Notes: generated by a model not told the origin, from the sequence alone. Positions 13,380 through 42,495 are shown, numbered from the stretch's first letter. The stretch: DNA of 43,872 nt from Myxococcales bacterium (GCA_903642325.1 CAHJWM010000040.1:1-43872); one strand, 5' to 3'. Program-made: numbers and translations.

Positions 13380-14398
13380 AATGCCAGATCGAACGCGACG
13401 TCTCCGGTGACGCCGGTCTGGTAGGCCGAGACCCGCCGTTCGAAGAAATTCGTCACTTCCTGCACGTCCTGGAGCGCCATGAAGGAAAATGGATTCTTCG
13501 TGCCGTACTGCTTGTCGAAACCCAGGGTGACCAACCGCTGATCGGCACAGTATTCCAGATACTGCGTCACGTCCCCCACGGATAACCCAGCGATGCCCCC
13601 GCCCAGAAGGTCTTCGGCGAACTGCACCTCGCAGGCGATGGCCTCGCTCAACATGGCCGACACATCAGCACGGAATTGCAAGTCCACGAGCTCTGGCTCT
13701 TCGTTCCGTACCGTACGCACGACCTCGAAGGCGAAGGCCATGTGCGCGCTTTCGTCGCGGAAGACCCAGTTCGTGCCCGCGGCCAGACCGTGGAGTAGCC
13801 CGCGTGAACGTAAGAAATACACATACGCGAAGGCGCCGAAAAAAAACAAGCCTTCGATGCAGGCTGCAAAGCAGATCAAGTTGAGCAAGAACCGGCGACG
13901 GTCGACGACCGTCTCTAGTTTCTCGACGTGTTCCAGTGAGGCTAGGTACTTGTTGCAGAACTCGGCCTTGCGCCGGATCGAAGGAATGTTTTCCACCGCG
14001 TCGAAGGCGCGCTCGCGGTCCTCGGCGTTCGGTACGTAGGTATCGAGCAGCGTGAGGTAAAATTGCACGTGCAACGCCTCCTCGTACAGCTGACGCGACA
14101 GATACATGCGCGCTTCGGGCGCGTTGATGTGCTTGTACAAGTTAAGCACCAAGTTATTGGCGACGATCGAGTCACCCGTCGCGAAAAAGGCTACTAAACG
14201 CTGCACCAGATGTCGCTCCGGCTCGCCCATGCGCTGGGTCAAGTCGCCAACGTCCGTCGAGAAGTCGACTTCCTCCACCGACCAAGTATTCTTGATCGCC
14301 GCGCGATACATTTCGAAGAAGGTTGGGTAAGCCATTGGCCGCAGGGTCAAGCACAACCCCGGGTCGAGGATCTTCGATGGCCGACTCGCGCCGCTCAT
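13376..14398 (-). CDS. nrdB: Ribonucleoside-diphosphate reductase, beta (R2) subunit
   Basis: A 340-residue class I small subunit that houses the diiron-tyrosyl radical cofactor. The expected ligands are visible: Asp in ATGDSIV, Glu-x-x-His in EEALHVQFY, Glu in CIEGLFFFG, and Glu-x-x-His in RDESAHMAF. The Tyr four residues after the first His matches the radical tyrosine, so this is a tyrosyl-radical rather than a Phe-type (Ic) enzyme. The start ATG 14398 overlaps the nrdA stop as ATGA, implying translational coupling. The open frame continues upstream inside nrdA and is ignored. It makes deoxyribonucleotides with NrdA and shares its B12-riboswitch leader. Confidence 0.96.
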   Translation of the reverse strand: MSGASRPSKILDPGLCLTLRPMAYPTFFEMYRAAIKNTWSVEEVDFSTDVGDLTQRMGEPERHLVQRLVAFFATGDSIVANNLVLNLYKHINAPEARMYLSRQLYEEALHVQFYLTLLDTYVPNAEDRERAFDAVENIPSIRRKAEFCNKYLASLEHVEKLETVVDRRRFLLNLICFAACIEGLFFFGAFAYVYFLRSRGLLHGLAAGTNWVFRDESAHMAFAFEVVRTVRNEEPELVDLQFRADVSAMLSEAIACEVQFAEDLLGGGIAGLSVGDVTQYLEYCADQRLVTLGFDKQYGTKNPFSFMALQDVQEVTNFFERRVSAYQTGVTGDVAFDLAF

Positions 14399-16881: not shown

Positions 16882-16887
16882 GATTTG

Positions 16888-16906
16888 TACTCCACGCTCG
16901 GGAGCA
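16888..16906 (-). promoter_or_regulatory. Candidate SD-sequestering hairpin of nrdA
   Basis: In the nrdA leader, TGCTCC can pair with GGAGTA across a seven-base loop, burying the GGAG ribosome site just before ATG 16881. This would suit a translational expression platform for the upstream cobalamin riboswitch. The stem is short and includes one G-U pair. A longer 10-bp hairpin (16958-16980, apical ACGGC/GCCGT) lies between it and the aptamer; it is not followed directly by a good U-tract, so termination is less likely. Confidence 0.45.
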
Positions 16907-17049
16907 GGGACGACCCGCTCTGAAAACCGAGAGACGCAAAAGACGGCGCGGCGCCCCCACGCACGGCGTAGCCGTACGTGCGAACAGGACCGAGCCGCCT
17001 CCCGCGAGGCCCTCGAGGTCAACCGACACCGGATGACTCCCGGCATCAG

Positions 17050-17254
17050 GTGTTGGCAGGTCTTCGGGCTCACGAGCGCTCCGGGAAAACCCGGCTCCCT
17101 ACCGTCCACTGCTTCCCAGCCGACGCCCCCTTCGATTCTGGGGGCGGCTAGCCGGTGCCACCGTGGAGTTCGTTCTCGTCTACCGCTGCGGGGCAGCCCC
17201 GGCGTTCGACCGGGTTCCCATTTTCAGCCTGCACGTATGCGCAGGCACCAACAC
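17050..17254 (-). ncRNA. Cobalamin riboswitch upstream of nrdAB
   Basis: The minus strand carries the hallmarks of the cobalamin (B12) aptamer. The B12 box AGCCCGAAGACCTGCC is at 17070-17055. GGTGCC follows the 5' closing strand, GGGAACCCGGTCGAACGCC and GGGGCTGCCCCGCAGCGG give the core, and CTGGGAAGC lies in the junction. The closing stem P1 is perfect: GTGTTGG (17254-17248) pairs with CCAACAC (17056-17050). It lies 169 nt before the nrdA ATG and just downstream of a good promoter. In the family, ligand binding lowers expression of the downstream gene. B12 riboswitches on class Ia RNR operons are known in Streptomyces. Confidence 0.95.
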
Positions 17255-17261
17255 ACGGACC

Positions 17262-17290
17262 GATATATTGGGGTCTAAGCGTTCCGTCAA
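17262..17290 (-). promoter_or_regulatory. Sigma70-type promoter for the riboswitch-nrdAB transcript
   Basis: On the minus strand TTGACG (17290-17285) and TATATC (17267-17262) are separated by exactly 17 bp. Transcription would begin about 7 bases further on, close to the first closing-stem base of the riboswitch. The fit of promoter and aptamer positions supports both calls. Confidence 0.7.
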
Positions 17291-23792: not shown

Positions 23793-25796
23793 ATGAGCGA
23801 GCCCAGTGAGGATCCCTTCGGCTGGGTGGGCGCTGCGCTGGACGGCAAATACCAGGTCGATGCCGTCGTCGGGCGGGGCGGGTTCGGGATCGTTTACCGA
23901 GCCCATCACTTGGGCTTCGACCAGACCGTCGCCATCAAGTGTCTTCGCATCCCGCAAACACTGAGCGGGTCAGGTCGAGACGAATTCGAGCGCGACTTCT
24001 TGGCCGAAGGTCGCTTGCTTCATCAGTTGTCTCGCGCCACGGCGGGCATCGTGCAAGCGCTCGATGTGGGCGCGGTGGTATCGCCCAACGCGATCTGGAC
24101 CCCATTCATCGTGCTCGAATGGCTGGACGGGCTCTCACTGGAGGCCGATCTTGCCGAGCGCCGCCGCGTCGGGCTTGGGGGCCGCTCGCTGCGCGAAGCC
24201 GTCGAGCTCCTGAATAGTGCCGCCCGCGCGCTGGCGTTGGCCCACGAGCAAGGCATCGCGCACCGTGACATCAAGCCTGCCAATCTTTTTTTAACCGACT
24301 TGGGCGGCCGGACCACGCTGAAAATACTCGACTTCGGCATCGCCAAGGTAGTCAGCGAGTCGGACAGCATTAGCAAAGCGTTCGAAGAAACAGGGACTTC
24401 GCTGCAGACCTTCACCGCGCGCTACGGCGCGCCGGAGCAGTTCAGTCGCCGCTACGGTGCTACCGGTCCGTGGACGGACGTCTTTGCATTGGCGTTGGTG
24501 CTGATCGAAGTAGTGGCGGGCCACGCCGCGTTGCAAGGCGCCGATGTCGCGCAGCTCTTCATCGCGTCCGCCGATACGGTCCACCGGCCCTCGTTGCGCG
24601 AGCTCGGCTTCGACCCAGGCTCGGGGATCGACGCCGTGTTGCAGATCGCGCTCGCCGTCGATCCGAAGCAGCGTTACGGGAACGCCGCGGCATTCTGGGA
24701 TGCGCTCTCGACCGCGCTCGCGCAGACCGGGGACGACCCCGGTCCACTCCCCAGTGCCTTGGCCCCGAGCGAGCCCACCGCCCGCGCTAACCCGTCGCCT
24801 GACCCATTCGGCTTGCTTGCGGACCGACCCCCGGTCCTGCGTCGCACTCGACTGGCGCTAATTAGTGGCGCGACGGCGCTGCTCGCTGCGCTTTTGCTGT
24901 GGCGTGGACGGGCGCCATCCTTCACGCCACAGGGCGTGAGCTCGAACAGCGCGTCGTCCAACACGGAAAGCAAGCCGATGCCCCGGCCATCTTCCGGTCT
25001 TTTCGAGGGCGGGAGCTCGGCGTTCGCGGGACTGCCCGCCCGAGACGTCAGCGCAGGGCCGGTCCCGTCCAGCAGCGCCTGGCTGGACAAGTTCAGCGTA
25101 ATGCGCCGTGAAGAAAACCAGGGACTGTCGTTCGAGCAAGCCTTCGCGCGCTGCGTAGACGCAGGAAAGACCCTGTGCACTGAGGCCCAGTGGTCACGCG
25201 CCTGCAACGCGTTTCCCGAGGTGGGGAACGCGTCTTCCTGGACCGAGAGCCTCGACGACGGCTTGGTGGTGGTGAGAGGCGGGGGATCGTGCGCCCCGCG
25301 CAAGCTAGTCTCGGAGACAGACCGCGACGCGCAAAACGTGGGCTTGTGCTGCGATCGCGCCGTAGCCATGACGTCCACATCCTTGCAGAAGCCGTTTCTG
25401 GCATCGACCGCAAGCGTCGTGCTCAAGCTGGAGCGCGCCTTGAATCAGCGCAGCATCGACGGATTTCTCGAGCTCACCGAAGATCGCGTGCTCCTGGACA
25501 AGCATATGCGCGATAAGCCAAGCCTGAAAGGGCTGCTGACGCAGTCCTTCGCCAAGGCTCACGATCTCGTAATTATCAACGATACGTGTGAGATCGAGGT
25601 CTTTGCGCGAAAGGTGCTCAAGCACTCACACCGTTCGAAACGGCCGAGCTACGAGACGACTGGCTGGACGGCAGCCTGCCTGCAAACTCGACATCGCGAC
25701 GGCAAGGCGGTGAGCGCCAAGAGCCGCTACGAGTTCTCTGCTAGCAGCCGGCTGCGAGCGGTTGACGACGACGAAGCGCCGCCGAACGGCGACTGA
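23793..25796 (+). CDS. Ser/Thr protein kinase with FGE-like extracytoplasmic domain
   Basis: A 667-residue receptor-type kinase. The catalytic domain (~20-310) has glycine loop VGRGGFGIV, Lys49, HRDIKPAN (Asp159), DFG at 180 and APE in YGAPEQF. A single membrane helix at ~353-369 is followed by a Ser/Pro linker and an outside domain (~435-525) with CVDAGKTLCTEAQWSRAC and GLCCDRA, which resembles the C-terminal half of formylglycine-generating-enzyme (SUMF1) folds with disulfides. A further ~120-residue domain ends the protein. Such tails may bind ligands outside the inner membrane; here that is inferred. Catalytic residues are complete. It is divergent from the ferredoxin and stands alone. 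Confidence 0.9.
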   Translation: MSEPSEDPFGWVGAALDGKYQVDAVVGRGGFGIVYRAHHLGFDQTVAIKCLRIPQTLSGSGRDEFERDFLAEGRLLHQLSRATAGIVQALDVGAVVSPNAIWTPFIVLEWLDGLSLEADLAERRRVGLGGRSLREAVELLNSAARALALAHEQGIAHRDIKPANLFLTDLGGRTTLKILDFGIAKVVSESDSISKAFEETGTSLQTFTARYGAPEQFSRRYGATGPWTDVFALALVLIEVVAGHAALQGADVAQLFIASADTVHRPSLRELGFDPGSGIDAVLQIALAVDPKQRYGNAAAFWDALSTALAQTGDDPGPLPSALAPSEPTARANPSPDPFGLLADRPPVLRRTRLALISGATALLAALLLWRGRAPSFTPQGVSSNSASSNTESKPMPRPSSGLFEGGSSAFAGLPARDVSAGPVPSSSAWLDKFSVMRREENQGLSFEQAFARCVDAGKTLCTEAQWSRACNAFPEVGNASSWTESLDDGLVVVRGGGSCAPRKLVSETDRDAQNVGLCCDRAVAMTSTSLQKPFLASTASVVLKLERALNQRSIDGFLELTEDRVLLDKHMRDKPSLKGLLTQSFAKAHDLVIINDTCEIEVFARKVLKHSHRSKRPSYETTGWTAACLQTRHRDGKAVSAKSRYEFSASSRLRAVDDDEAPPNGD

Positions 25797-25799
25797 ACA

Positions 25800-26576
25800 T
25801 CAGCCGCCGAGCCTAGACTCGTTGTGGCAAAGCTCAGCTAGGTTGTCCGGACATGCGATACGCACGTGGAAGTGGTCGTCGTGAACGCTGGTCCCGGGCG
25901 GTTGCTTCAGCAGCAGCTCGACCTCTGGCACATAGGGCGCGAAGCGCGGATCTTTTTTGCCGTATTCAATCAGCCGCCACCGCAGGCCGCTCGAAACGAA
26001 TATGTGAGCGAGCCCGGCGCGGCTGTCCGTTACCCAAGCACGCAATAACACCCAGTTCCGATAGTCATCGAAGTAGAGACCGCGTTCGTAACGAGATCTC
26101 CCATTCGGATCGAAGGGCGTGAAGTGTTCTCGGACCACGGGGCGCCCCTGCACATCCATCAAATAAAATCCGACGTCCGCGTCCCGCCCGCTTTGATGGC
26201 TGACGTGTCCAGCGAGCGGGCCTCCGTCACGCCTAGAGAGATCCCCCACCATCATCAGCGAGCCTCTTTCAACGCGGGCTACTTCGCGTGCGCTGCGTTC
26301 TAGCATGAGGACCAACGCCGGGTGCGCGTAAGTATTGTCCTTACTGGTGTCCTTCACCCTCAAGATCTCGGAATTCTTCAGTTTTTTAGCGCGCAACTGA
26401 AAGCCGGCGTTGGGGTAACCCACGGTCAGCGACATCACGGAGAAGGGGGCGCCGAGGAAACGCGGCGGAAGCTCGCGCCCAGTGCCGGCGCTGGCGCGAG
26501 GCGCAAGCACGGCCAGCGCACCGGCCAGAGCCGCGATCGAGCCCGCCAAGCGAGCGGTGTTTCGCCGTTGAAGCAT
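25800..26576 (-). CDS. mepA: Penicillin-insensitive murein endopeptidase
   Basis: A 258-residue periplasmic LAS-type zinc peptidase that cuts the D-Ala-meso-diaminopimelate crosslink of peptidoglycan. GHVSHQSGRDADVGFY holds the first metal and catalytic residues and VHDDHFHVRI the last ones. An N-terminal signal peptide (hydrophobic ~10-28, Ala-rich cut site) directs export. Length is close to the family norm of ~270. The stop is 3 bp from the end of the convergent kinase at 23793. It lies downstream of the TonB receptor gene on the same strand with a 73-bp gap. Confidence 0.9.
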   Translation of the reverse strand: MLQRRNTARLAGSIAALAGALAVLAPRASAGTGRELPPRFLGAPFSVMSLTVGYPNAGFQLRAKKLKNSEILRVKDTSKDNTYAHPALVLMLERSAREVARVERGSLMMVGDLSRRDGGPLAGHVSHQSGRDADVGFYLMDVQGRPVVREHFTPFDPNGRSRYERGLYFDDYRNWVLLRAWVTDSRAGLAHIFVSSGLRWRLIEYGKKDPRFAPYVPEVELLLKQPPGTSVHDDHFHVRIACPDNLAELCHNESRLGG

Positions 26577-26649
26577 CGAAGCTCGGCTCTAACACGGCCG
26601 GCCCGAAGCCCGCAAAATTCGCGCGCACGAGACCCGCCGGGCGCGCGAC

Positions 26650-28614
26650 TCACCACCAGGCTTCCAGCGCCAGATGCCAGCTGCGCCCGGGCACCGGATA
26701 ACCGATGAAGTCGAAGTGTCGGGTATCGAGCACGTCGTCGACGGCCAGGCGCGCGGAGAACTGCGAGGCTCCCCCGCACTGCAACGTCGCACCGAGGTCG
26801 AGCTCGCTAGATGCTGGGAGCACGAGCAGTCCTGCTGGATCGGCCAAACGTGAACCTCGATAGCTCAGGCGCGCATCCAAGCCGCCGCGTCGTATGAGCG
26901 GCAAGCCCAGCTCGAAGTAGCCCTCCAGCAGCACACTGCCGAGCAGGCGCGATTGGTATGGCACCAGGTCGTTGTTCAGGTGACGGGAGCCCGTGGTGTC
27001 CCGTGGGTCGAGCAGGGTCAAAGATAGAAGTGATCGAACGTGCCGAGCCCACTCTGCGCTCGCCTCGAGCTCAGCGCCGAGGAGCCGCGCACTTCCCACA
27101 TTATACGGCTGTATCGCGCCCAGAGAGGAGCGCCGATAAGCGATCAGCTCAGAGACGTGGCGCGCGAAGCCAAAGGCATCGACATACGCCCGTAGCGGGC
27201 CAATCTCGCCCTCCCAACGCGCGCCTAAATCCGAGCTCGTGCCCCGTTCCGCGACGAGCGCCGAGCTACCGCGCACCAGTGCCGATACGCCATAAAGCTC
27301 ACCGAGGGTGGGCACGCGGGTATAATGCCCCACGTTGCCTCGAACTTCGACGACTCCCCACTTCACGCGCACACCGACGCGGCCCGCAGGCATGAGCGCA
27401 GCGCAGCTCTGAGCTTGATCGGGGCCGCGGGTGAGCTCGCAGCTCACGGCCCCGAGTGCCGAGAGCCCCAGGTGCTCGCCGAGCGCGGCGGAAAGACCGG
27501 CGCGGGCCGAGCTGGTACTGCGCGTGGCACGCAGGGTTCGGCCGCCGTCGAGCGTTAAACGCTCGGATTCGAAATTAGCAGCGAGGAGCGCCTGAAGTAC
27601 GGTCCCGGACAGCGAGATGTGAGCACTTTGGGCCACGCGGGTGGCATGCGAGTCCACTCGCTCCACCAACAGCCCGAGCTCACGGCGCGGATCGCTCAGC
27701 CGGGCGCTGGACGAGATGGCTTGGCTTCCGAGCACGATTTCACAACCTGGATGCGCGCCGCAAGGCAGTTTAGCGGACAGGCCAGCAAGCAGGCGCGCGC
27801 TCTCCGCACGTGCAGAGAGCGCCGGCACTGCGGCCAGGCCCGTCACTCCTTGCTCGCGCTCGAAGGCATTGAAGACCGTGGTCACGCGCGCGCCGCGCCG
27901 CCCGAGCGAGGTTCGCCCGATCGCCCAAGCATCACGCTCGCTGTAGTCGGCGTTCGGACGCGCACGCGTGCGGTCGTCGTTCGACCCGGAGGTGCCGGCG
28001 TTGTCTAGGTAGGGGTAATCGTTCTTCGCGCTGGCGGCGCGAAAGCTCACCAGAGCCGCGTCATCACGATCAGCGAGCTCGGCGCCTACGAAGCCCGCGT
28101 GCTGACCAAAGCTACCGAGCTCGGCGCCCGCCCCCACGCGGCTCCGTTGGGGCACCCGAGGCTCGAAATAGATCGCGCCGCCGATGCCCAAGCGGTCTGC
28201 GTCCGCTGGTGCATTTCCGCGATAGACTTCCGCGCGCGATAACATCCAAAGCGGCACGAGCGAAAGGTCCGCGGTGCCCGTCAGGTCATCGTTCAAGCGG
28301 ATCCCCGCCAAATAAACCGGCGTCTGAGCGCTGGTCGCACCGCGTAGCGAGGCCGTGGCCAGGTCAGCACCGCCGCCGGTGCGGGAGATCTGTACCCCCG
28401 GCACGTGACTTAAAATCGCGGCCGCGTCTGCACCTGGCCGAGACAGTTCGCGCACGTCCACCCGGGTGCCGGCGAGCGTGGGCTCGCGCGTGGGCCGTGT
28501 ACTTCGCTGTCCCTCGATCAAGACCTCGGGGCCAGCGCTTGGCTCGGCCTTCGCACGCGGAGCGCTGAGTAGGCTAGCGCTGAGCACTGCCCCAACCAGC
28601 GCGCGCACGCTCAA
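26650..28614 (-). CDS. TonB-dependent outer-membrane receptor (BtuB-like)
   Basis: A 654-residue outer-membrane barrel. The signal peptide is followed by a short segment with EVLIEG (possible TonB box), a plug domain (~45-150: LSHVPGVQISRTGGG, SLRGATSAQTPVYLAGIRLND, AEVYRGNAP) and a 22-strand-type barrel ending in a Trp-Trp terminus. The final FIGYPVPGRSWHL is like the C-terminal part of BtuB. Its small size favours a small-ligand receptor such as cobalamin, but ferric siderophores are possible. The start is TTG 28614, overlapping the dtd stop as TTGA, or GTG 28608; the open frame upstream runs inside dtd and is not used. No riboswitch is seen directly in front. Confidence 0.88.
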   Translation of the reverse strand: MSVRALVGAVLSASLLSAPRAKAEPSAGPEVLIEGQRSTRPTREPTLAGTRVDVRELSRPGADAAAILSHVPGVQISRTGGGADLATASLRGATSAQTPVYLAGIRLNDDLTGTADLSLVPLWMLSRAEVYRGNAPADADRLGIGGAIYFEPRVPQRSRVGAGAELGSFGQHAGFVGAELADRDDAALVSFRAASAKNDYPYLDNAGTSGSNDDRTRARPNADYSERDAWAIGRTSLGRRGARVTTVFNAFEREQGVTGLAAVPALSARAESARLLAGLSAKLPCGAHPGCEIVLGSQAISSSARLSDPRRELGLLVERVDSHATRVAQSAHISLSGTVLQALLAANFESERLTLDGGRTLRATRSTSSARAGLSAALGEHLGLSALGAVSCELTRGPDQAQSCAALMPAGRVGVRVKWGVVEVRGNVGHYTRVPTLGELYGVSALVRGSSALVAERGTSSDLGARWEGEIGPLRAYVDAFGFARHVSELIAYRRSSLGAIQPYNVGSARLLGAELEASAEWARHVRSLLSLTLLDPRDTTGSRHLNNDLVPYQSRLLGSVLLEGYFELGLPLIRRGGLDARLSYRGSRLADPAGLLVLPASSELDLGATLQCGGASQFSARLAVDDVLDTRHFDFIGYPVPGRSWHLALEAWW

Positions 28615-29060
28615 AAAGCTCGCTTCGTGTCGACGAGAATGGTCACGGGCCCGTCGTTTTCGAGCGTTACCAACATGTGCGTCCGAAAGCGCCCCGTCTC
28701 GACGTGCGCTCCGCGCAGCCGACACTCGGCGCAGAATTGTGCGAACAGCGCGCTTGCGCGCACGGGTTCGAGTGCCTCGCTGAAGCTCGGTCGCCGGCCG
28801 TTGCGCACGTCGCCATACAACGTGAATTGCGAGATGGCGAGCATGGATCCGCCCACCTCCAACACACTTAGGTTCATCTTGTGCGCGTCGTCTTCGAAGA
28901 TGCGCAGGCCCACGATCTTGTCGGCCAAGGCCGTCGCGTCGAGCTCCGTGTCTTGCCGGCCCACCCCGACGAACACGCACAGCCCGCGCTGTACACTGCC
29001 CACGCTGCTGCCCAGGGCCACGACCTGCGCGTGATTCACGCGCTGGATGACTGCTCGCAT
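28611..29060 (-). CDS. dtd: D-aminoacyl-tRNA deacylase
   Basis: A 149-residue cytoplasmic enzyme that removes D-amino acids wrongly attached to tRNA. MRAVIQRV is the usual N-terminus, SQFTLYGD the active-site motif and GPVTI the Gly-cisPro motif; the length is normal. ATG 29060 is chosen over an upstream in-frame start at 29099 because the family begins at MRAVIQRV. The stop overlaps the start of the TonB receptor, an odd partner for a translation-quality gene. It is divergent from the DUF4112 gene. Confidence 0.95.
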   Translation of the reverse strand: MRAVIQRVNHAQVVALGSSVGSVQRGLCVFVGVGRQDTELDATALADKIVGLRIFEDDAHKMNLSVLEVGGSMLAISQFTLYGDVRNGRRPSFSEALEPVRASALFAQFCAECRLRGAHVETGRFRTHMLVTLENDGPVTILVDTKRAF

Positions 29061-29114
29061 TGCCCGCGAGAGGCTTGCCTCGCGCGCGCGCGAGTTCAAG
29101 CGTAGAGATGCGGT

Positions 29115-29612
29115 ATGCCTCGAGATCCGTTGCCCAGAGCCATGAGTCAGCAGCTCCCGCCGTGGGCTTTCGCGCTCACGCGCCTGTTGGACGACGCTCT
29201 GATGATTCCCGGCACGCGCATCGGCATTGGCTTGGACGCCGTGCTGGGTTTTTTCTTGCCCACGATCGGCGACGCGACGACGGGCCTGGCTTCACTCGCC
29301 TTGTTGGTGCTCGGTCTTCGCATGCGCGTGCCGCGCGTGGTGCTGATGCGCATGGTCTTCAATATCGCGCTCGACGCCTTGCTTGGCTCGATCCCGCTCT
29401 TGGGCGACGTTTTCGACGTGTTTTGGCGCTCGAATCGGCGCAATCTGGGCCTGCTGCAGCGCTACGAACAGGGGCCCCCGCGAGCAGCCACGGCCTCCGA
29501 CTACCTGGTCGTTGCTCTCGGTGGCGTGCTGATCGTGGCCGCGGTGGTCTTGCCGTTGTTGCTCGGCTTCGCGCTGCTCCGCAGCCTGTGGGGCTACATG
29601 TCCGGCCACTGA
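29115..29612 (+). CDS. DUF4112 membrane protein
   Basis: A 165-residue protein of the DUF4112 family. LDDALMIPGTRIGIGLDAVLGFFLP and the later DALLGSIPLLGDVFDVFWRSNRRN (long motifs at ~26-50 and ~87-110) are the conserved signature. Two hydrophobic segments flank them, and a third strong helix lies at ~134-155. It is an inner-membrane protein of unknown function. The start may instead be ATG 29142, nine residues later, where MSQQLPPWA begins the conserved part; neither has a clear ribosome site. Confidence 0.85.
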   Translation: MPRDPLPRAMSQQLPPWAFALTRLLDDALMIPGTRIGIGLDAVLGFFLPTIGDATTGLASLALLVLGLRMRVPRVVLMRMVFNIALDALLGSIPLLGDVFDVFWRSNRRNLGLLQRYEQGPPRAATASDYLVVALGGVLIVAAVVLPLLLGFALLRSLWGYMSGH

Positions 29613-29627
29613 GCGCGTTCACCTCGG

Positions 29628-30689
29628 CTAGGCCAAAAACCGCACCGTGCGTTCCACTACCGGTTCCCCGCCCAGCTCGCCGGCTTCGGCTTGCTTGAGC
29701 AGGCGCCAGATGTGCGGACCCAGAAAGTCGAGCTCGGTGGACGCATACTGCTCGCCACCGAAGCGTCGAATGTTGTCGGCCTGGGCGCGCAAGATATCCG
29801 CGTCTTGCCCGAAGATCCGAAGCGCAAAAGGCTCCAAGATGCGGCTTACCATGCGCCCCGGGAAACGGGTGTGGAACTCGGCTACCGCGTACATCCGGGT
29901 TCGAAAGTCGCTCTCTGGAGTACAAAACGAGGTCACGCGGAAATGCACGTCTTTGCCCAGGCGATATTCGACTTGGGCGATCGACGGCAACATGAAACGG
30001 TCCCAATGCTCGACGATCCCTCCGCCTGGAGACAATACCCGCCCCGCGATCCCACTCGGCCGAGGCTCGCCGTCGTATTGCACCTCCACGCGGTCGGCCG
30101 AGCGTCGCACCGTAGCCAAAATTTCACTCTGTTTGCCGCCACGAAACAGGCCACGGTGCAAAAACGCGGTGTGCGGCACGTCGAGCGCATTTTCGATCGT
30201 CGCGTGCAAGCTGCCGTCGGCCTGCACCTCGCGCACGACGCGGGCGTAGTTGGTGCCGGCCGGAGGCAGCTCGAACGGCGACGATTCCGGCATCGTGTCG
30301 AGCTCTGGATAGACCCAGACCAAGCCGTCTCGTTCTTGCACGGCTGCCGACGGCACACGGCGCTCGCGCGTTTCAGTCTCGAGTAGCCCCGGAATCCGGG
30401 TGCAACGACCATCCCCTCGAAACTGCCAGCCGTGGTAGGCGCACTCCAGAGTACCCTGCCCTACCACGCTACCCAAAGACAGCGGGACGTTGCGATGCGG
30501 GCAACGGTCGAGCAATGCTGAAGCGGCTCCGCCTGGTCCGCGAAACAGAACCAGCGGTACACCCACGACGCTGCGCGCCAGGGGCTTACTTCCTAGCTCC
30601 CCACTCTGACACGCGACGTACCAAAACCGCGCAAGACGAGCCACTGACACGTGGCCCTTGGTCTCGGGCGGAATGAGTTTTGGATGCAT
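29628..30689 (-). CDS. Rieske-type aromatic ring-hydroxylating oxygenase
   Basis: A 353-residue oxygenase alpha-type subunit. The Rieske cluster ligands are CPH and CAYH, 17 residues apart, in the N-terminal third. The mononuclear iron site is DVPHTAFLH (two His) with the third, Asp, probably in FGQDADI. The size and single-subunit look fit the KshA/PaO/vanillate-demethylase class acting on sterols, chlorophyll breakdown products or aromatics. No reductase is adjacent; the ferredoxin at 23352 might serve it. ATG 30689 is chosen, with a GAGG about ten bases upstream; the in-frame TTG at 30707 is less likely. It is divergent from an acyl-CoA dehydrogenase. Confidence 0.9.
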   Translation of the reverse strand: MHPKLIPPETKGHVSVARLARFWYVACQSGELGSKPLARSVVGVPLVLFRGPGGAASALLDRCPHRNVPLSLGSVVGQGTLECAYHGWQFRGDGRCTRIPGLLETETRERRVPSAAVQERDGLVWVYPELDTMPESSPFELPPAGTNYARVVREVQADGSLHATIENALDVPHTAFLHRGLFRGGKQSEILATVRRSADRVEVQYDGEPRPSGIAGRVLSPGGGIVEHWDRFMLPSIAQVEYRLGKDVHFRVTSFCTPESDFRTRMYAVAEFHTRFPGRMVSRILEPFALRIFGQDADILRAQADNIRRFGGEQYASTELDFLGPHIWRLLKQAEAGELGGEPVVERTVRFLA

Positions 30690-30773
30690 CACCAATGGCC
30701 TCTGCAAACTGGATCATAGGCCGGATTGGCGCATGTTGCAGCTCCGCGCCGCGACCCCCATATTGAACACAGC

Positions 30774-30780
30774 AAGGAGG
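30774..30780 (+). promoter_or_regulatory. Ribosome binding site setting the acyl-CoA dehydrogenase start
   Basis: AAGGAGG lies five bases before GTG 30786. It excludes a TTG start 60 bp further upstream. Confidence 0.85.
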
Positions 30781-30785
30781 TCCTA

Positions 30786-32531
30786 GTGGTCGATAAGAAG
30801 ACGGTCAGCTTCATGCGGTCCCTGTGCATGGGTCAAATCGAAGAGGACGTCATTCTGCCGTTCCCAACCATCCCGAGCGCGGAGAAGGAGACCCTGCGCG
30901 GCGTCGTCCGCTCACTCGAACAGTTGCTCGATCCACACGCAGCTGATTTCCGGCATTGGGACCGTGCAGGCGAATTTCCTCTGGAGTTCGTGGAGGAGCT
31001 CAAAGCGTTCGGCTTGTTCAGCTTGGTGATCCCGGAGGAGCACGGCGGGCTCGGGTTCGGGAGCAGCGCCTACTCGCGCGCGTTGCAAGAGGTCGCCAAA
31101 TACGATGCCTCGGTCGCCGTCACGGTCGGCGCGCACAGTTCCATCGGCATGCGCGGCGTGCTGCTATTCGGCACGGACGAACAGAAGGCGCGCTACATGC
31201 CAAAGCTCGCTACGGGCGAGCTGGTAGCTGCCTTTTGCTTGACCGAGCCAGGCGCCGGATCGGACGCCGCATCGATCAAAACCAGCGCCGTGAAGGATGG
31301 CGACGACTGGATCCTAAGCGGCAACAAATTGTGGATCACCAACGGCGGCATCGCCGATTTTTTTACGGTATTCGCCAAAACGGACGAGGTGGACGGCCGG
31401 GGGAAATTGAGCGCTTTTTTGGTGACGCGTGACATGGGGGGGGTGAGCTCCGGGCCCCACGAGGACAAGATGGGCTTGCGCGCTAGCTCCACCACCACCG
31501 TTCACTTCGACAACGTGCGCGTCCCACGACAAAACCTTCTGGGAGAAGTGGGCAAGGGCTTCAAGGTCGCCATGACCATCTTGAACTCCGGCCGCACGGG
31601 CTTGGGCGGCGGCAGCGTCGGCGGAATGAAAAAGCTCATCGCACTGTCGGCGAAGCAGGCCAAAGATCGAGTGCAGTTCGGCAAACCGATCTCCGACTTC
31701 GGCCTGATCAAGCAGAAGGTGGGGCAGATGGTGGTCGATTGTTACGCTTCGGAGGCAGTCGTCAGCATGGTCGCGGGCTTGAACGACGCAGGCTACGAGG
31801 ACTACGCGGTAGAAGCGGCGATCAGCAAAGTTTTCGCTAGCGAAGCGCTCGGGCGCACTGCGGACGAAGCTTTGCAGATCGCGGGCGGCAACGGCTACAT
31901 GTGCGAGTACCCATATGAGCGCGTGGTGCGGGACAGCCGCATCAATCGCATATTCGAGGGCACGAACGACATTCTGCGCCTGTTCATTGCTTTGAACGCC
32001 ATGAACGACGCTGGGCAGACCTTGCGTGAGCTGTCAAAGTCATTGGAGGGTGTGTTCACCGATCCGATCAAAGGCTTCGGTGTGGTCTCCGAGTACACGC
32101 TGCGCCGCGTGTCGATGGCAACCGGCTACAACCGTCATGGAACGACCTTTACGAAGCTCGACCCAAGCTTGAAGCTGGTGGCCGGCATCTTCGAAGGCGG
32201 CACGCGCGATCTCGCCACGGCAAGCGACCGAATCTTGCGCAAACACGGGCGCGCGATCATCGACAAGCAGTTCGCCACGCGACGATTGGCCGATATCATG
32301 ATCGATCTGTTCGTATTGGCTTCGGTGATCAGCCGCGTGGATTCGGCCATTGTCGAAAGGGGCGCCGAGCAAACCAAGAAAGAGCACGAAATAGTCACGG
32401 TGTTCGCACGCCAAGCGGAGCGGCGGATCAAGGCCAACATGGACGAGATCGACAACAACGTGGACGAGTCCATCAAATCCCTGGCCGATCACAGCTTCGA
32501 GCTCGAGAAATTCGGCTGGGATACGCTGTAG
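30786..32531 (+). CDS. Acyl-CoA dehydrogenase (very-long-chain/ACAD9-like)
   Basis: A 581-residue flavoprotein dehydrogenase for fatty acyl-CoA beta-oxidation. The N-terminal helical domain is followed by CLTEPGAGSDAAS and WITNGG (FAD and substrate contacts), RVQFGKPISDFG in the C-terminal helical domain, and the catalytic Glu in RIFEGTNDILR. About 180 extra C-terminal residues, mostly helical, are like those of the VLCAD/ACAD9 branch, which is longer than the ~380-residue short- and medium-chain enzymes. The start is GTG, fixed by a strong ribosome site. It acts in the cytoplasm or at the membrane. Divergent from the Rieske oxygenase; a joint catabolic role is only a guess. Confidence 0.95.
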   Translation: MVDKKTVSFMRSLCMGQIEEDVILPFPTIPSAEKETLRGVVRSLEQLLDPHAADFRHWDRAGEFPLEFVEELKAFGLFSLVIPEEHGGLGFGSSAYSRALQEVAKYDASVAVTVGAHSSIGMRGVLLFGTDEQKARYMPKLATGELVAAFCLTEPGAGSDAASIKTSAVKDGDDWILSGNKLWITNGGIADFFTVFAKTDEVDGRGKLSAFLVTRDMGGVSSGPHEDKMGLRASSTTTVHFDNVRVPRQNLLGEVGKGFKVAMTILNSGRTGLGGGSVGGMKKLIALSAKQAKDRVQFGKPISDFGLIKQKVGQMVVDCYASEAVVSMVAGLNDAGYEDYAVEAAISKVFASEALGRTADEALQIAGGNGYMCEYPYERVVRDSRINRIFEGTNDILRLFIALNAMNDAGQTLRELSKSLEGVFTDPIKGFGVVSEYTLRRVSMATGYNRHGTTFTKLDPSLKLVAGIFEGGTRDLATASDRILRKHGRAIIDKQFATRRLADIMIDLFVLASVISRVDSAIVERGAEQTKKEHEIVTVFARQAERRIKANMDEIDNNVDESIKSLADHSFELEKFGWDTL

Positions 32532-32651
32532 ATTCGGGCGGTTTGTGCCGGGCTCGGGCCGGGCCGGAGCGGACCGGGCTGACACGGCAGCCCTGAAAAC
32601 TGTAGACTTTGCGGCCCGGTTGGCAGCGCCGCCGGCCCGAGCCGCGCCCAG

Positions 32652-33497
32652 ATGACTACAGCCAAGTCGAAGCCGTTGATGCCAAAGGCAACCAAGCCCC
32701 ACGCCGTACAGCCAGAGGCGTTGAAGCCGAAGGTCAGCAAGCCCGAAGCCAAGAGCGGAGATCAGCCGAACGCCAAAGCCGCCAGTCGAACGAAGGTCAC
32801 GAAACCCTCCGTCGCCGCTGTCCGTCCAGGGGCCAAGACCGTATCGAGTAAGAAAAAGAACCCCAAGCCCGGGACGAGTGAGCCCTCGGCAGCCCCGACC
32901 ACACTTGCCGTCGCGAAGCCCAGCGTTGCGCCGGCGAAAATCAAACCGATCGAGCAGGCCGTGGGCGTAAGCAGTGACGCTGTGGCGCGTCGCACCGGCA
33001 AGTCATGGGCGCAGTGGTTCGCGTTGCTCGACGCCGCCGGCGCGGCCGAGCTGGATCACAAGGGCATCGTCGCGGTGTTGGCTCAGCGGCACGGGGTCGG
33101 CCCTTGGTGGCAGCAGATGGTGACCGTCGCGTACGAGAAAGCCCGCGGGATGCGCGAGCACCAACCGAGCGAAGAAGGATTCCAAGCCGGCGTCTCCAAG
33201 ACGCTCGAGCTACCGTTGGCCAAATTGTACCGGCTCTGGGCCGAGCCCGCCGAGCGCAACAAGTGGCTCGGTGACGATCGCTTCTCGATACACAAGGCGA
33301 CGGCATCCAAGTCGATCCGCGCGCGCTGGGGTCGCGGGGTAAGCCGGATCGACGTCGACTTTTGCGCGAAGGGCCCGTCCCAATCGCAAGTCACCGTACA
33401 ACACAATCGGATTGAGACGTCGGATGCAGCCGAGCAAATGAAGGCGTACTGGGCGAAGAAGATCCGCGCGCTGGAAGCGCTGCTTGCGGCACCCTGA
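32652..33497 (+). CDS. DUF4287-SRPBCC protein with Lys/Pro/Ala-rich N-terminal tail
   Basis: A 281-residue protein. Residues 1-105 are a low-complexity Lys/Pro/Ala tail (repeated KPxA, AKP) that resembles histone H1-like tails and should be disordered and basic. Residues ~106-165 match the DUF4287 helical domain (TGKSWAQWFALLDAAGA, GVGPWWQQMVTVAYEKARG). The rest looks like an SRPBCC/AHSA1-type cavity (LYRLWAEPAERNKWL, VTVQHNRI). The pairing of DUF4287 and SRPBCC occurs in other bacteria; the basic tail is unusual and might bind nucleic acid. Function unknown. ATG 32652 follows a ~120-bp GC-rich gap with possible hairpins. Confidence 0.8.
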   Translation: MTTAKSKPLMPKATKPHAVQPEALKPKVSKPEAKSGDQPNAKAASRTKVTKPSVAAVRPGAKTVSSKKKNPKPGTSEPSAAPTTLAVAKPSVAPAKIKPIEQAVGVSSDAVARRTGKSWAQWFALLDAAGAAELDHKGIVAVLAQRHGVGPWWQQMVTVAYEKARGMREHQPSEEGFQAGVSKTLELPLAKLYRLWAEPAERNKWLGDDRFSIHKATASKSIRARWGRGVSRIDVDFCAKGPSQSQVTVQHNRIETSDAAEQMKAYWAKKIRALEALLAAP

Positions 33498-33597
33498 GCA
33501 ATCGCTTACCGCCACGCCCTCGGTTACTTATCGCGAACGCGCGCGATGCCCGCACGAGATAGCTGCGGCGGGTGGCACCGAGAGTAGCGCTGCCCGG

Positions 33598-34896
33598 TTA
33601 CGAGTCGACCTCGCGCCCCTCTTGCAAGCGAGCTGAAAGACCCGCTCTCAGCGGGTGTGGCGCGTGCGCGGGCCGCGCGGCGTTCGGAGCCGAGAGCTTG
33701 AGCAACGGCGTGGTCATCAGCGTGGTGACGAGCGCCATCAGCACCATCATCGTGAATAGTTTCGCGGAAATGACGCCTAAATCTAGGCCGACGTTGAGCA
33801 CGATGAGCTCCATCAGCCCCCGCGTATTCATCAAAATGCCGAGGGCGGCCGAGTCGCGCGTGCTCATACCCGTGACGCGCGCCACGCAAAAAACGCCGCC
33901 GAATTTGCCCACGCAGGCCACGCCGATCAGGGCAAGACAGAGCAGCCAGTCGTTCAGGCCGGCGAGCAACCCGAGCTGGGTGCGGAGACCGCTGAAAGCG
34001 AAGAACAGCGGCAGGAAGGCGACGACGACGAAGTCTTCCAGGCGCTCGGCCAACGCGCGAGCGTAGTCCCCTTGGCGGGGCATGATGGTGCCAAACAGGA
34101 ACGCGCCGAAGAGCGCGTGAACGCCGATCACCTCGCTCGCCAAGGCCGAAGCGAGCAGCAGGACGAAGGTGAGTGCGACGATGTTCTGCGTGAGGTGCTG
34201 GCGTGCCGTGATGTGCGTGCCGAGCCGCGCCAACAGCGGCCTGACTACGGCGAGCATCACGGCGGCGAAGGCCATCGCCTCGACCGTGGTCAACAGCGCC
34301 GCCATGAGGCCGTTCGCGTGGACGAACGAAACCACGAATGCCAGCAGGCACCAGGCAGTCACGTCGTCGGCGGCCGCACATGCCAAGGCAATGGATCCCA
34401 TTTCGGTGCGGGTTAGCTTTTGTTCCGCGAGGATGCGCGCCAGCACGGGAAAGGCAGTGATGCTCATGGCGATGCCCATGAACAACACGAAGGACGCCTT
34501 GCCCACGCCCGGCTCGGCATGGCTGGCGAAGATCCGCATGGCCAAAAGCGCGCCCAGACCGAACGGCACCGTAATGCCGGCGGCGCTGATCGCAACGGAC
34601 GACACGCCCCGGCCGCGCAGAAGGCTGGGATCGAGCTCGAGCCCGATCAAGAACATGAAGAACACCAAACCGACCTGGCTAACCAGCGACAAGCCCGCAA
34701 AAGAGGCGCTCGGAAAGAGCGTTCGGAAGAGCTGCGGCGAGAGTCGACCCAAGAGCGACGGTCCGAGCAGGATTCCCGCGATCACCTCCGCGATCACCGC
34801 TGGCTGTCCGACCCAGCGCGCCAGGGCTCCGATGCCTCGCGCGGCAACGATGATGACGCATGCCTGAAGGATCAGAAGCGAAAGTGGACCGTGCAT
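33598..34896 (-). CDS. CPA2-type cation:proton antiporter
   Basis: A 432-residue integral membrane protein with about 12 helices, of the monovalent cation:proton antiporter-2 family (KefB/NapA-like). GQPAVIAEVIAGILLGPSLLG is the first conserved helix pair region, SITAFPVLARIL the unwound helix and CAAADDVTAWCLLA carries the ion-binding Asp-Asp pair. There is no C-terminal RCK/TrkA domain, so nucleotide gating as in KefB/KefC is not expected. It exchanges Na+ or K+ for protons across the inner membrane. It lies 124 bp downstream of the D-aminoacylase gene on the same strand. Confidence 0.93.
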   Translation of the reverse strand: MHGPLSLLILQACVIIVAARGIGALARWVGQPAVIAEVIAGILLGPSLLGRLSPQLFRTLFPSASFAGLSLVSQVGLVFFMFLIGLELDPSLLRGRGVSSVAISAAGITVPFGLGALLAMRIFASHAEPGVGKASFVLFMGIAMSITAFPVLARILAEQKLTRTEMGSIALACAAADDVTAWCLLAFVVSFVHANGLMAALLTTVEAMAFAAVMLAVVRPLLARLGTHITARQHLTQNIVALTFVLLLASALASEVIGVHALFGAFLFGTIMPRQGDYARALAERLEDFVVVAFLPLFFAFSGLRTQLGLLAGLNDWLLCLALIGVACVGKFGGVFCVARVTGMSTRDSAALGILMNTRGLMELIVLNVGLDLGVISAKLFTMMVLMALVTTLMTTPLLKLSAPNAARPAHAPHPLRAGLSARLQEGREVDS

Positions 34897-39034: not shown

Positions 39035-40291
39035 ATGACTCCGCTTCGCCGCCACTTCCGCCGCTGCGCGACGGCGACACTACTCAGCGCGTTGCTCCTG
39101 TCGGAGAGGCCGGTTGCAGCCCGCGAGAGCGGGGAGCCTCAGCGCTTCCACGTCGTGTACGCCGGTCAGCACCTGAGCACGATTGCCAAGCGCTACAAGG
39201 TCAGCGTCGATGCCATTCGCATGGCCAACGGCCTCGGCAAGGCCACGCGGCTGAAGCCCGGTGACAAGCTCACAATCCCCGGCTTGGACGACCCAGACGG
39301 CAGCCGAGCACGAGCGCTCTACCCGCCCCCACATCCCACGGACGAGCCCACGCTGCCCGCATCGGCCCATACGGACAAGGAAGACCGCGCGCAAGAAGCA
39401 GAGAAGGATGCAGACGACGGCCCACGTACCCACACGGTGTACGCCGGGCAACGCCTGGAATCGATCGCCAAGCGATACAAGGTTTCGCTAGCCGCGCTTT
39501 GCGCGGCGAACGGCATCACGCGGCGGACCAAGCTGCATGCGGGCCAAGTGTTGGCGGTGCCTCGTCCCGGCGACCCGTCGGCCACTAAGGACGACGATAC
39601 CGACGAAGACGCCGCCGGCAAACGAGCTGGGCACAAGCTAACTCGGCTCGGTCTGCGCAAAGGCTATCTGGACCTGTTCAATTACGGAGGTCACTTCCAT
39701 GGCTACGCCATCGACAAGAAGGGCAAAGTGACGGCCGTCGCGGAAACGGAAGTATCGAAGCTGTTCGGCGCCACCAGCCCCCGCCCAATGACCGACCCTC
39801 GGCTGATCGAGCTCCTTTCGAGGGTGAGTGACAGGTTTGGCAGTCGGCCAATCCGGATCGTCAGCGGTTACCGCACGCGTTCGTTTTATCAGGACTCGAG
39901 ACACAAGCTGAGCCGCGCCGTCGACTTCAGTATTCCGGGCATCGCCAACGTGGTGCTTCGCGACTACCTGCGGACGCTGCCCGCGGCAGGCGTCGGCTAC
40001 TATCCGAACTCCTCGTTCGTGCACTTGGACGTGCGCGATGTGGCCACGTACTGGGTCGATTTCGCGGGCCCCGGCGAATCTCCGCGCAAGACCAACGCGC
40101 GCAACCACGATCGAGAAGCAGAGGGCGATCTGCACGATCCGGAGGTCTCCGAAGGGGACCGCCAAGGTCCGAACGACCCGCCGACTCTAGAAGCGCCGTC
40201 GCTCGCCGCGCCGCTCGAACCATCCGCGGCGCCGAGCAGCGATACGACGAGCGATGCGCCGAGCACCGGCCCTCAGATCCCGCCCAAATAG
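39035..40291 (+). CDS. LysM-M15 family envelope peptidase
   Basis: A 418-residue exported protein. A signal peptide (~8-29) is followed by two LysM peptidoglycan-binding repeats (~37-85 and ~134-178, each with VYAGQ and AKRYKVS). The catalytic-fold domain (~200-345) resembles the M15/DUF882 peptidase group: IVSGYRTRSFYQ, SRHKLSRAVDFSIPG (His/Asp) and YPNSSFVHLDVRD (His-x-Asp). A Pro/Ser/acidic tail ends the protein. It should bind peptidoglycan and trim crosslinks or peptides. Its last 19 bases overlap the end of the convergent beta-propeller gene. Confidence 0.85.
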   Translation: MTPLRRHFRRCATATLLSALLLSERPVAARESGEPQRFHVVYAGQHLSTIAKRYKVSVDAIRMANGLGKATRLKPGDKLTIPGLDDPDGSRARALYPPPHPTDEPTLPASAHTDKEDRAQEAEKDADDGPRTHTVYAGQRLESIAKRYKVSLAALCAANGITRRTKLHAGQVLAVPRPGDPSATKDDDTDEDAAGKRAGHKLTRLGLRKGYLDLFNYGGHFHGYAIDKKGKVTAVAETEVSKLFGATSPRPMTDPRLIELLSRVSDRFGSRPIRIVSGYRTRSFYQDSRHKLSRAVDFSIPGIANVVLRDYLRTLPAAGVGYYPNSSFVHLDVRDVATYWVDFAGPGESPRKTNARNHDREAEGDLHDPEVSEGDRQGPNDPPTLEAPSLAAPLEPSAAPSSDTTSDAPSTGPQIPPK

Positions 40292-41529
40292 CGCGGCGGA
40301 AGGCCGAGGCGAGCTTCCGCTTGCAGTACCGTCGGAGCCGCCAACGCGTTCGAGCTGCGGATAGGAAAGCGCAACACGCTGCCGGATGCCCGTTCGGCGT
40401 CGGCCGCGAAGCACACTCCGCAGCTGACCGCACAGCGCACGCCGCCTAGGGTGAAGGGCTGGCTTACCGAACGCAAAAGCTCAGTAACGTGGCCGCGCGC
40501 AGTCTCGAGCTGCCACAATCCGTCGCGCGTCACCGCGCCGGCCTCGTCGATGTGCCCGAGCGTGTCGTAAAGCAGCGAGCCGTCCGCTACGTAGTCGAGG
40601 CCAAAGCCCGTAGGGTCGGCGCCCAGCTCGCGCGCTTCGAAGCTTTTACTCAGGCGCGGGGCGCTCGAGATGTCAATCAGCGCTATCCCGGAGCCCTCGA
40701 GCTTTGGCACCACGCTCTTCAGGTCGTCGCCCGTGCAGCTGACCGCAAGCTCGCGATGATCCGGTGAAAGAGCAAGCGTCTCGCAGCCACGGAAACCTTC
40801 GAGGATGACCGTCCCCAGCAAGCTATTCGTTGCGGGCTCGATCTCGACCACACGCGAAGCGAGCGCGCTCGAATAATCATCCGCATACGACGACAGCAGC
40901 GAGAACACTCTGCCGCCGGTCTGTACGAGCTGGGCCGGGTGCGCTGAGAAACCGCGGGGCGCGCCCACCATTGCCGGTGATAGATCGATGCGCCCGATTA
41001 TTTCGGGCAAGCCTGGATCAACGACGAGTATGTCCGCGCCGGCATCGAAGTTCTCTTTCCCGGGGCTCGGATTCGACTCGTAGCGCGCTACATAGGCTTG
41101 GTGCGGGCTAATCGCCAAGTAATCGTACGGATTGGAGCGGAAGCCGGTGGCGACCGAAAGCTCGGCCGTAACGCGCGCGTTTTCGAGATCCAGGAAGCGC
41201 AGCACGCCCGCGGGATAACGGTCGATGAGCACGACCCGCGATCCACTCTGTGAGGCCGAGGGTAGAACGATGTCCCCGCTCAAACCCACCCCGAAGCCAC
41301 CCGACTCGGTTTGGGAGCTGACGAGCGAGTCAGATAGGACGGCTCCGCCGAAACCCAGCGCGGACACGTTGCTCGACTGGTAATCAGACTCCACGACCAA
41401 CAGGCCTCGACCGCAAGGCCCCGATTCGAGCGTTATGCCCTGGGTGTCGGGGGTGCGGCGGGAGGCGCCACACCCGCACACGTTCGCTGCCAACGCCAAG
41501 CTCGCAATCAAGGCACGCGTCGAAGTCAT
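40273..41529 (-). CDS. YncE-like beta-propeller lipoprotein, B12-regulated
   Basis: A 418-residue lipoprotein with a hydrophobic signal and the lipobox VCGC (Cys20). The body has repeating four-strand blades of the YncE/lactonase propeller type: VVLIDRYPAGVLRFLDLE, YLAISPHQAYVARYES, VVEIEPATNSLLGTVIL, LALSPDHRELAVSCTGDD. Many Cys residues near the end may pair. ATG 41529 overlaps the upstream stop as ATGA, so the pair is coupled and sits behind the cobalamin riboswitch. In Bacteroides the B12-binding surface lipoprotein BtuG is also a seven-bladed propeller next to cell-surface proteins in a B12-controlled locus. A cobalamin-capture role here is inferred from fold and control, not from sequence identity. 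Confidence 0.82.
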   Translation of the reverse strand: MTSTRALIASLALAANVCGCGASRRTPDTQGITLESGPCGRGLLVVESDYQSSNVSALGFGGAVLSDSLVSSQTESGGFGVGLSGDIVLPSASQSGSRVVLIDRYPAGVLRFLDLENARVTAELSVATGFRSNPYDYLAISPHQAYVARYESNPSPGKENFDAGADILVVDPGLPEIIGRIDLSPAMVGAPRGFSAHPAQLVQTGGRVFSLLSSYADDYSSALASRVVEIEPATNSLLGTVILEGFRGCETLALSPDHRELAVSCTGDDLKSVVPKLEGSGIALIDISSAPRLSKSFEARELGADPTGFGLDYVADGSLLYDTLGHIDEAGAVTRDGLWQLETARGHVTELLRSVSQPFTLGGVRCAVSCGVCFAADAERASGSVLRFPIRSSNALAAPTVLQAEARLGLPPRYLGGI

Positions 41530-42212
41530 GGGCACTCCGCGTTCACGATTGAGACTGCATCCAAGTCGAACGTGCCGTTTAGGCCGGTGAGGTCGGCGCG
41601 ATCGGTGATGCGCACGAAGCGCGCCTCGCGCAGCCCAAGGTCGCGCAAGTCGAAGGCGTCTCCTCCCGCCCGCGCCGGGTCGGTCGGATCGACCGAATTG
41701 CGGTCGGGGTTTGCAAATACCGGATGCCAGCCAGCGCAGTCGCCGTACGGGTACTCCGTTGCCGTACAGGGAAATGCGCTAAAATCCTGGCCGTTTGCGC
41801 TGACCGCAACGGTCGCCAACTCCGCGAACGGGCGCTGCTCGTCACCGTCTATGTAGAACGGATTCTCGAACACGATGAAATCCGCACCCTCGCCATCGAC
41901 GATCGTGCTCGGCGCAAAACCGAGCGTGATACTACCGCCGTTGCCGAGCGTTGCGACGTCGAGCGACCCCTGCCCTTTTAGACCGGCCTTGGGCGGACCC
42001 AAGACGATGTCCGGTAACTTATCTTGACCAAACGTGGGTCCCGGCCCAGCCGTGAACGACACGACGGCAGTAGCGAAGCGAGATGGACAGCTGCCCGGCG
42101 CGCCCGCTCCCGTCGCATCGGCGTCGCCGCCGTCAGTCGTGGCGCTGCACGCGGCGCACGCGAAGCATATAAAAACGGACGCGCCGAGGGCGCCCCAACG
42201 AGGACAGACCAT
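41526..42212 (-). CDS. B12-regulated cell-surface lipoprotein
   Basis: A 228-residue exported protein. A short hydrophobic signal ends in a Cys-rich region (Cys16, 19, 22); CAAC gives Cys22 as the likely lipid anchor, though the lipobox lacks the usual Leu. The mature part has features of the cell-surface protein family seen in B12 loci: VLGPPKAGLKGQGSLDVATL, GNGGSITLGF, DFIVFENPF, GCAGWHP-like DCAGWHPVFAN, AGGDAFDLRDLG and FDLDAVSIVN. The ATG 42212 has GGGAG six bases before it; the frame is open to 42311 but that lies in the leader. First gene after the riboswitch, translationally coupled to the propeller gene. A role in cobalamin binding is inferred. Confidence 0.82.
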   Translation of the reverse strand: MVCPRWGALGASVFICFACAACSATTDGGDADATGAGAPGSCPSRFATAVVSFTAGPGPTFGQDKLPDIVLGPPKAGLKGQGSLDVATLGNGGSITLGFAPSTIVDGEGADFIVFENPFYIDGDEQRPFAELATVAVSANGQDFSAFPCTATEYPYGDCAGWHPVFANPDRNSVDPTDPARAGGDAFDLRDLGLREARFVRITDRADLTGLNGTFDLDAVSIVNAECP

Positions 42213-42259
42213 GTGGACTCCCGAGCGAGCTCGCGCTCCGTGGTGGACGGCGCCTCCAC
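42213..42259 (-). promoter_or_regulatory. Candidate expression platform masking the lipoprotein ribosome site
   Basis: On the minus strand GTGGA (42259-42255) can pair with either of two TCCAC copies: one at 42247-42243, forming a local hairpin, or one at 42217-42213, directly between the GGGAG ribosome site (42222-42218) and the ATG. The two pairings exclude each other. A GAGCG/CGCTC hairpin lies next to the ribosome site as well. This is the kind of switch expected below a translational B12 riboswitch; it was drawn by eye only. Confidence 0.4.
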
Positions 42260-42283
42260 GACGAATCGCGGCGACGCACCGAA

Positions 42284-42495
42284 GGACAGGTCTTCCGACT
42301 TCCCTTCCCACACGCGTGTCGCCTTCCCGGTTGCCTGGATCGTTTCAGGCTAGCCAGTGGCGTCAGTGACACGCGAATACTCGGGGTTACGGCGGCGGCT
42401 CCGTGCCGGACTTGCACCGGACTTCCCAAGGTGGACGTTCCACCTCCCCACTCGGGGATCGATAGGCCAGGGACACGTAACCCGAGGCACCCTGC
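42284..42495 (-). ncRNA. Cobalamin riboswitch upstream of the surface lipoprotein operon
   Basis: The minus strand has the cobalamin aptamer landmarks in order: GGTGCC at 42491-42486, the hairpin GGTGG/CCACC, GGGAAGTCCGGTGCAAGTCC in the core, CGGAGCCGCCGCCG, the junction pair GCCACTGG and GGGAAGGC, and a B12 box (AGTCGGAAGACCTGTC) at its 3' end, about 42300-42285. The closing stem is weak by eye, so the outer limits are approximate. The ATG of the lipoprotein is ~70 nt further on. B12 should turn the operon down, as in other B12-uptake loci. Confidence 0.94.

Follow-up and report, generated by a model that had tools for sequence, protein, structure and literature searches.

Capture of vitamin B12 (cobalamin) at the cell surface by the beta-propeller lipoprotein BtuG and by the BtuH domain is known from gut Bacteroidetes. 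Both kinds of domain occur in one chain in BtuG1 of Bacteroides thetaiotaomicron, which is a BtuG-BtuH fusion (PMC12751083, PMC10404256), and the BtuH domain, reported in gut Bacteroidetes and in three Firmicutes, was published without known structural homologues (PMC8941943). Here we analyzed a two-gene operon led by a cobalamin riboswitch in a stretch of 43,872 nucleotides from a Myxococcales bacterium (GCA_903642325.1, CAHJWM010000040.1:1-43872), hereafter called the window, to whose positions all coordinates refer unless stated otherwise. Its translationally coupled genes would provide the parts of BtuG1 as separate chains, and the pair very probably represents the predicted surface-capture part of a B12 uptake system of the BtuB/BtuG/BtuH type. 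In the literature searched, with most subscription journals outside its scope, no report of BtuG or BtuH in Myxococcota was found. The operon comprises the following features:

42478..42268, minus strand: cobalamin riboswitch aptamer, RF00174 (58.1 bits, E 5.7e-12, full-length model match, 1-189)
42212..41526, minus strand: gene for a BtuH-domain-like secreted protein, likely a lipoprotein, LIC_13355-like (228 amino acids)
41529..40273, minus strand: gene for a BtuG-like beta-propeller lipoprotein (418 amino acids)

The aptamer scores well above the RF00174 gathering score of 31.5 bits and was also recovered by a genome-wide search. It lies 55 nucleotides from the ATG start of the BtuH-like gene, which is preceded by GGGAG, and the stop codon of this gene is overlapped by the ATG of the propeller gene (ATGA), in agreement with a preliminary description of the locus that placed a cobalamin riboswitch directly before two translationally coupled genes. 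Considering that only three RF00174 riboswitches are found in the 5.83 Mb genome (99% complete), namely this one, another before nrdAB at 17267..17038 and a third on contig C3, the pairing of riboswitch and genes is more than chance. Folding of the RNA downstream of the aptamer revealed no structure beyond that of shuffled sequences (z -0.25) and promoter and terminator scans of the operon leader gave nothing above chance, so no expression platform is proposed here. The riboswitch would act as an off-switch, leaving the genes on when B12 is low.

The motifs GNGGSITLGF, DFIVFENPF and GGDAFDL, singled out in the preliminary description, are present in the first protein and fall in the most conserved columns of its family. 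This family has no Pfam entry of its own, and a Pfam and NCBIfam scan of the window protein returned a sole match, to the Leptospira LIC_13355 family model NF033170 (46.4 to 47.1 bits, E 2.9e-12), below the curated cut-off of 120 bits. The same model matches 61 of the 63 BtuH-like proteins. An AlphaFold2 model built from these 63 sequences, all but one of which come from named genomes, reached a mean predicted local distance difference test score (pLDDT) of 95. When the 1000 best Foldseek candidates for this model were ranked with VIA-align, the first rank was taken by BtuH2 (BT_1956, 7biz; Z 14.1, 2.6 Å over 151 residues) and the second by the BtuH part of BtuG1 (8blw_B; Z 13.8), followed by PAPP-A and CBM32 domains at a Z of 10.0 or less; BtuH is thus the closest fold by a clear margin, and Foldseek alone also gave 8blw_B as best match (E 3e-5). 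In the alignment of profile A2, the invariant Asn and nearly invariant Phe of the FENxF motif align to positions 299 and 301 of the 7biz chain, which would correspond to Asn399 and Phe401 by a 100-residue offset if the chain start follows the published construct. In BtuH2 these two residues make contacts with B12, at its phosphate and its lower ligand (PMC8941943). Besides the conserved Asn, the window protein shares with BtuH its linkage to btuB and a propeller. It differs in its low identity (18-22%) and in being a shorter, stand-alone protein with a single domain after the signal, lacking the N-terminal PKD and Ig domains. Their absence is not strictly defining, since PKD domains are missing from some Bacteroides BtuH proteins (PMC8941943).

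The second protein displays a lipoprotein signal with the near-lipobox V-C-G-C and no match in the Pfam and NCBIfam scan, including no Pfam enzyme match. Its AlphaFold model was built from 14 sequences and has a mean pLDDT of 85.5. The 14 best Foldseek matches of this model in the PDB are all BtuG chains (E 1.2e-13 to 1.3e-11), the next being an archaeal YVTN propeller (E 1.2e-10), and VIA-align also puts BtuG first (Z 29.9 vs 28.2 for the next fold). At the sequence level, a narrow first profile of the propeller (A1) reached BtuG at E 0.4-0.9 only, while profile A6, to which more distant receptor-linked propellers were added, reached E 6e-5, with BtuG accounting for all eight best matches. 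The closest solved structures are BtuG1, BtuG2 and BtuG3 of B. thetaiotaomicron (8okv, 8bmy, 8bai, 8bn0, 3dsm). The window protein resembles them as a predicted beta-propeller lipoprotein encoded behind a cobalamin riboswitch and, in relatives, next to btuB; in contrast to them it is larger (388 modelled residues), shows about 14-16% identity and has its receptor gene apart, and its B12 binding is predicted.

The operon itself contains no receptor gene, as had been stated, and one was found elsewhere in the window, at a distance of 12 kb:

28608..26650, minus strand: gene for a BtuB-like TonB-dependent receptor (652 amino acids; Plug and barrel domains), starting 2 nucleotides after dtd

This receptor is orthologous to the one encoded inside the operons of relatives, matching most such receptors at E 1e-155 to 1e-121, and a profile of the operon receptors gives it 742.6 bits vs 173.7 for the next receptor of the genome. 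Hence it is the operon and not the module that is without a receptor. The Plug and barrel domains are shared with BtuB of E. coli (1nqe) and Bacteroides (8p98, 8blw, 8bmx), the PDB matches of the single sequence are BtuB (best E 1.1e-13), and BtuB is also the best match of the receptor family profile (E 7.6e-42). The protein falls far below the cut-off of the BtuB equivalog model TIGR01779 (61 vs 599.7 bits), for which reason we call it BtuB-like only.

Homologues of the propeller were found in 58 of 284 sampled Myxococcota genomes and homologues of the BtuH-like protein in 164, and most sampled members of the source genome's family carry both. Mapping of both proteins, TonB-dependent receptors and riboswitches in 60 Myxococcota loci showed that a receptor gene commonly stands directly before the propeller gene. 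The full order riboswitch, BtuH-like gene, receptor, propeller is displayed by loci of several families (L086, L090, L092, L093, L095, L097) and also by L138, L143, L146 and L179, and L085 has the same three genes with no riboswitch detected. In L117, L118, L120 and L123 the riboswitch, BtuH-like gene and receptor are together and the propeller lies elsewhere. Receptor-less pairs like that of the window occur in L103 and L181, the latter with a receptor just downstream on the other strand. The description of the window pair as a "minimal", receptor-less system is thus not upheld, given that many relatives have a receptor gene placed between these two and that the window itself encodes one. A survey reaching beyond Myxococcota with the BtuH-like family covered 80 loci from GTDB species (Myxococcota, Planctomycetes, Binatia, KSB1, WOR-3, Sumerlaeota and others). 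With a riboswitch-core profile, 53 of these loci showed a match upstream of the gene and on its strand, against 1 locus with a downstream match and 3 with a match on the opposite strand, with upstream bases making up less than half of the total searched; all ten riboswitch-bearing loci checked with Rfam were confirmed. The covariance-model match in the leader, the Foldseek comparison with BtuG, the structural comparison of the partner with BtuH and this recurrent association with cobalamin riboswitches and BtuB-like receptors are the computational tests proposed for a BtuG-resembling capture module, and all of them came out in its favor.

The B12 physiology of the genome was also assessed. A btuF-btuD-btuC-like operon on contig C1 includes the only FecCD permease of the genome. 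There are five matches to B12-binding domains, one of them in a 1322-residue open reading frame of MetH size, and the B12-dependent ribonucleotide reductase NrdJ is present. Neither CbiC nor CobS was found in the genome, at 99% completeness, and this soil-type bacterium is apparently unable to make B12. As the CbiC/CobH step of B12 synthesis was found in only 3 of the 284 Myxococcota genomes, scavenging is probably important in almost the entire phylum. In the mechanism that we propose, scarce B12 would lead the riboswitch to permit expression of both genes. Both proteins would be lipid-anchored, probably at the cell surface, and their BtuG-like propeller and BtuH-like domain would bind cobalamin and pass it to the BtuB-like receptor. 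A BtuF-like periplasmic protein and a BtuCD-like ATP-binding cassette transporter encoded on contig C1 would then import it to the cytoplasm, where it would serve MetH and NrdJ.

Several observations weigh against the assignment of the pair to B12 capture. The profiles of the BtuH-like family placed BtuH at the top of the PDB sequences with values that are not significant alone (A2, BtuH2, E 0.23; A4, the BtuH part of BtuG1, E 0.026). The contact mapping covers Asn399 and Phe401, the other contacts of BtuH2 being Gln333, His476, Tyr510, Trp511 and Trp577. The window protein, with 187 modelled residues vs about 270 for the BtuH domain, may lack some of the B12-contact loops. In the VIA-align comparison of the propeller, BtuG and other propellers are only about 1.5 Z units apart. 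A riboswitch was also sought before the window receptor, and no RNA family match was found in 24000-34000. Finally, the lipobox of the BtuH-like protein is atypical (F-A-C-A-A-C). Canonical lipoboxes (LVGC, LAGC, LSAC, LVAC) are present in many relatives of both operon proteins, and the lipoprotein assignment is therefore likely, yet weaker for the window copy of the BtuH-like protein.

The fold of the first protein also bears on whether cobalamin is the ligand. The structures ranked next after BtuH belong to discoidin, CBM32 and PAPP-A domains, and F5_F8_type_C gives weak matches to two members of the family. The Leptospira relative LIC_13355 was investigated as an adhesin, with reported binding to laminin and plasminogen (PMC11891782). 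The two proteins could thus be B12-regulated and bind a polysaccharide or a surface partner through a discoidin/CBM32-like domain, with B12 control being part of a wider stress program. We consider this improbable, given that BtuH2 and BtuG1 rank about 4 Z units above the discoidin, CBM32 and PAPP-A domains, and that many loci combine the genes with a BtuB-like receptor and a cobalamin riboswitch, an arrangement which for the BtuH-like family recurs in several phyla. Where in the cell the proteins act is a separate question. Surface exposure is not readable from sequence, and BtuJ1 and BtuJ2 of B. thetaiotaomicron bind B12 on extracellular vesicles (PMC12751083), so that the pair might be a periplasmic or vesicle-borne store or carrier of B12. 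This is very unlikely in view of the propeller gene lying directly after the receptor gene in many relatives and of BtuG capping BtuB at the Bacteroides cell surface (PMC10404256). BtuJ itself is a DUF4465 protein (9FCT, 9I2L), a beta-jelly-roll B12 binder of B12-regulated loci, and a search of this genome for DUF4465 (PF14717) gave no match.

A riboswitch of this class may also control genes that replace a B12-dependent activity at low B12, in which case the propeller would be an enzyme of the gluconolactonase/SMP-30 type. An example of such sparing may be seen in the same window:

17267..17038, minus strand: second cobalamin riboswitch (RF00174, 88.1 bits), before nrdAB, a separate regulon member

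Downstream of it are the class I ribonucleotide reductase genes nrdAB (14395-17267 with the riboswitch), which together with NrdJ in one genome form the expected B12-sparing arrangement, and some propellers in loci related to the operon weakly match SMP-30. The secreted lipoprotein signals, the physical linkage to a BtuB-like receptor and a window propeller whose closest structure is BtuG and which has no Pfam enzyme match leave this explanation with the slimmest chance of the three. Surface capture of B12 is accordingly our preferred reading, although binding by either protein, their surface exposure and the hand-over to the receptor are predictions.

With regard to origin, the preliminary description had suggested a module that was either acquired or convergent. 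Neither alternative is favored: both proteins occur widely in Myxococcota and seem to be remote homologues of their Bacteroides counterparts. Judged from distribution rather than from a phylogenetic tree, recent acquisition of the pair is not favored, because the genes occur across Myxococcota and their nearest relatives are mostly in the same family. The best reading is that of a capture system outside Bacteroidota which is old in Myxococcota. The finding suggests a scavenging mode well beyond the gut, names concrete candidate proteins for it and connects the BtuH domain with many unannotated relatives, a large family that occurs in Myxococcota, Planctomycetes, KSB1, WOR-3 and others. It also gives the Leptospira lipoprotein another possible reading. 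A wider proposal, to which we would give even odds, is that Gram-negative B12 scavengers of many phyla have long and generally relied on surface capture of the BtuG/BtuH type, which would then be no invention of gut Bacteroidota. Under this proposal the members of the large LIC_13355-like family, the Leptospira protein among them, are stand-alone B12 binders whose partner propellers differ between lineages.

Some loci of the wider survey deserve mention. In L150, L163, L201 and L215, from other lineages, a different secreted protein is encoded between the riboswitch and the BtuH-like gene, and in L201 and L215 this protein has weak matches to SMP-30/NHL propellers. The BtuH-like gene of L192 lies on a contig binned as Bifidobacterium breve; its features match those of L191, from an uncultured proteobacterium, and the contig is probably mis-binned. 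In the source genome, the third cobalamin riboswitch is directly followed by the gene of a second lipoprotein beta-propeller (L113:4448-5746, minus strand, equal to G000:C3:98447-99739). Homologues of this propeller mostly keep the riboswitch within the family, ten other loci keep one, and some of the homologues match the profile of the BtuG-like propeller.

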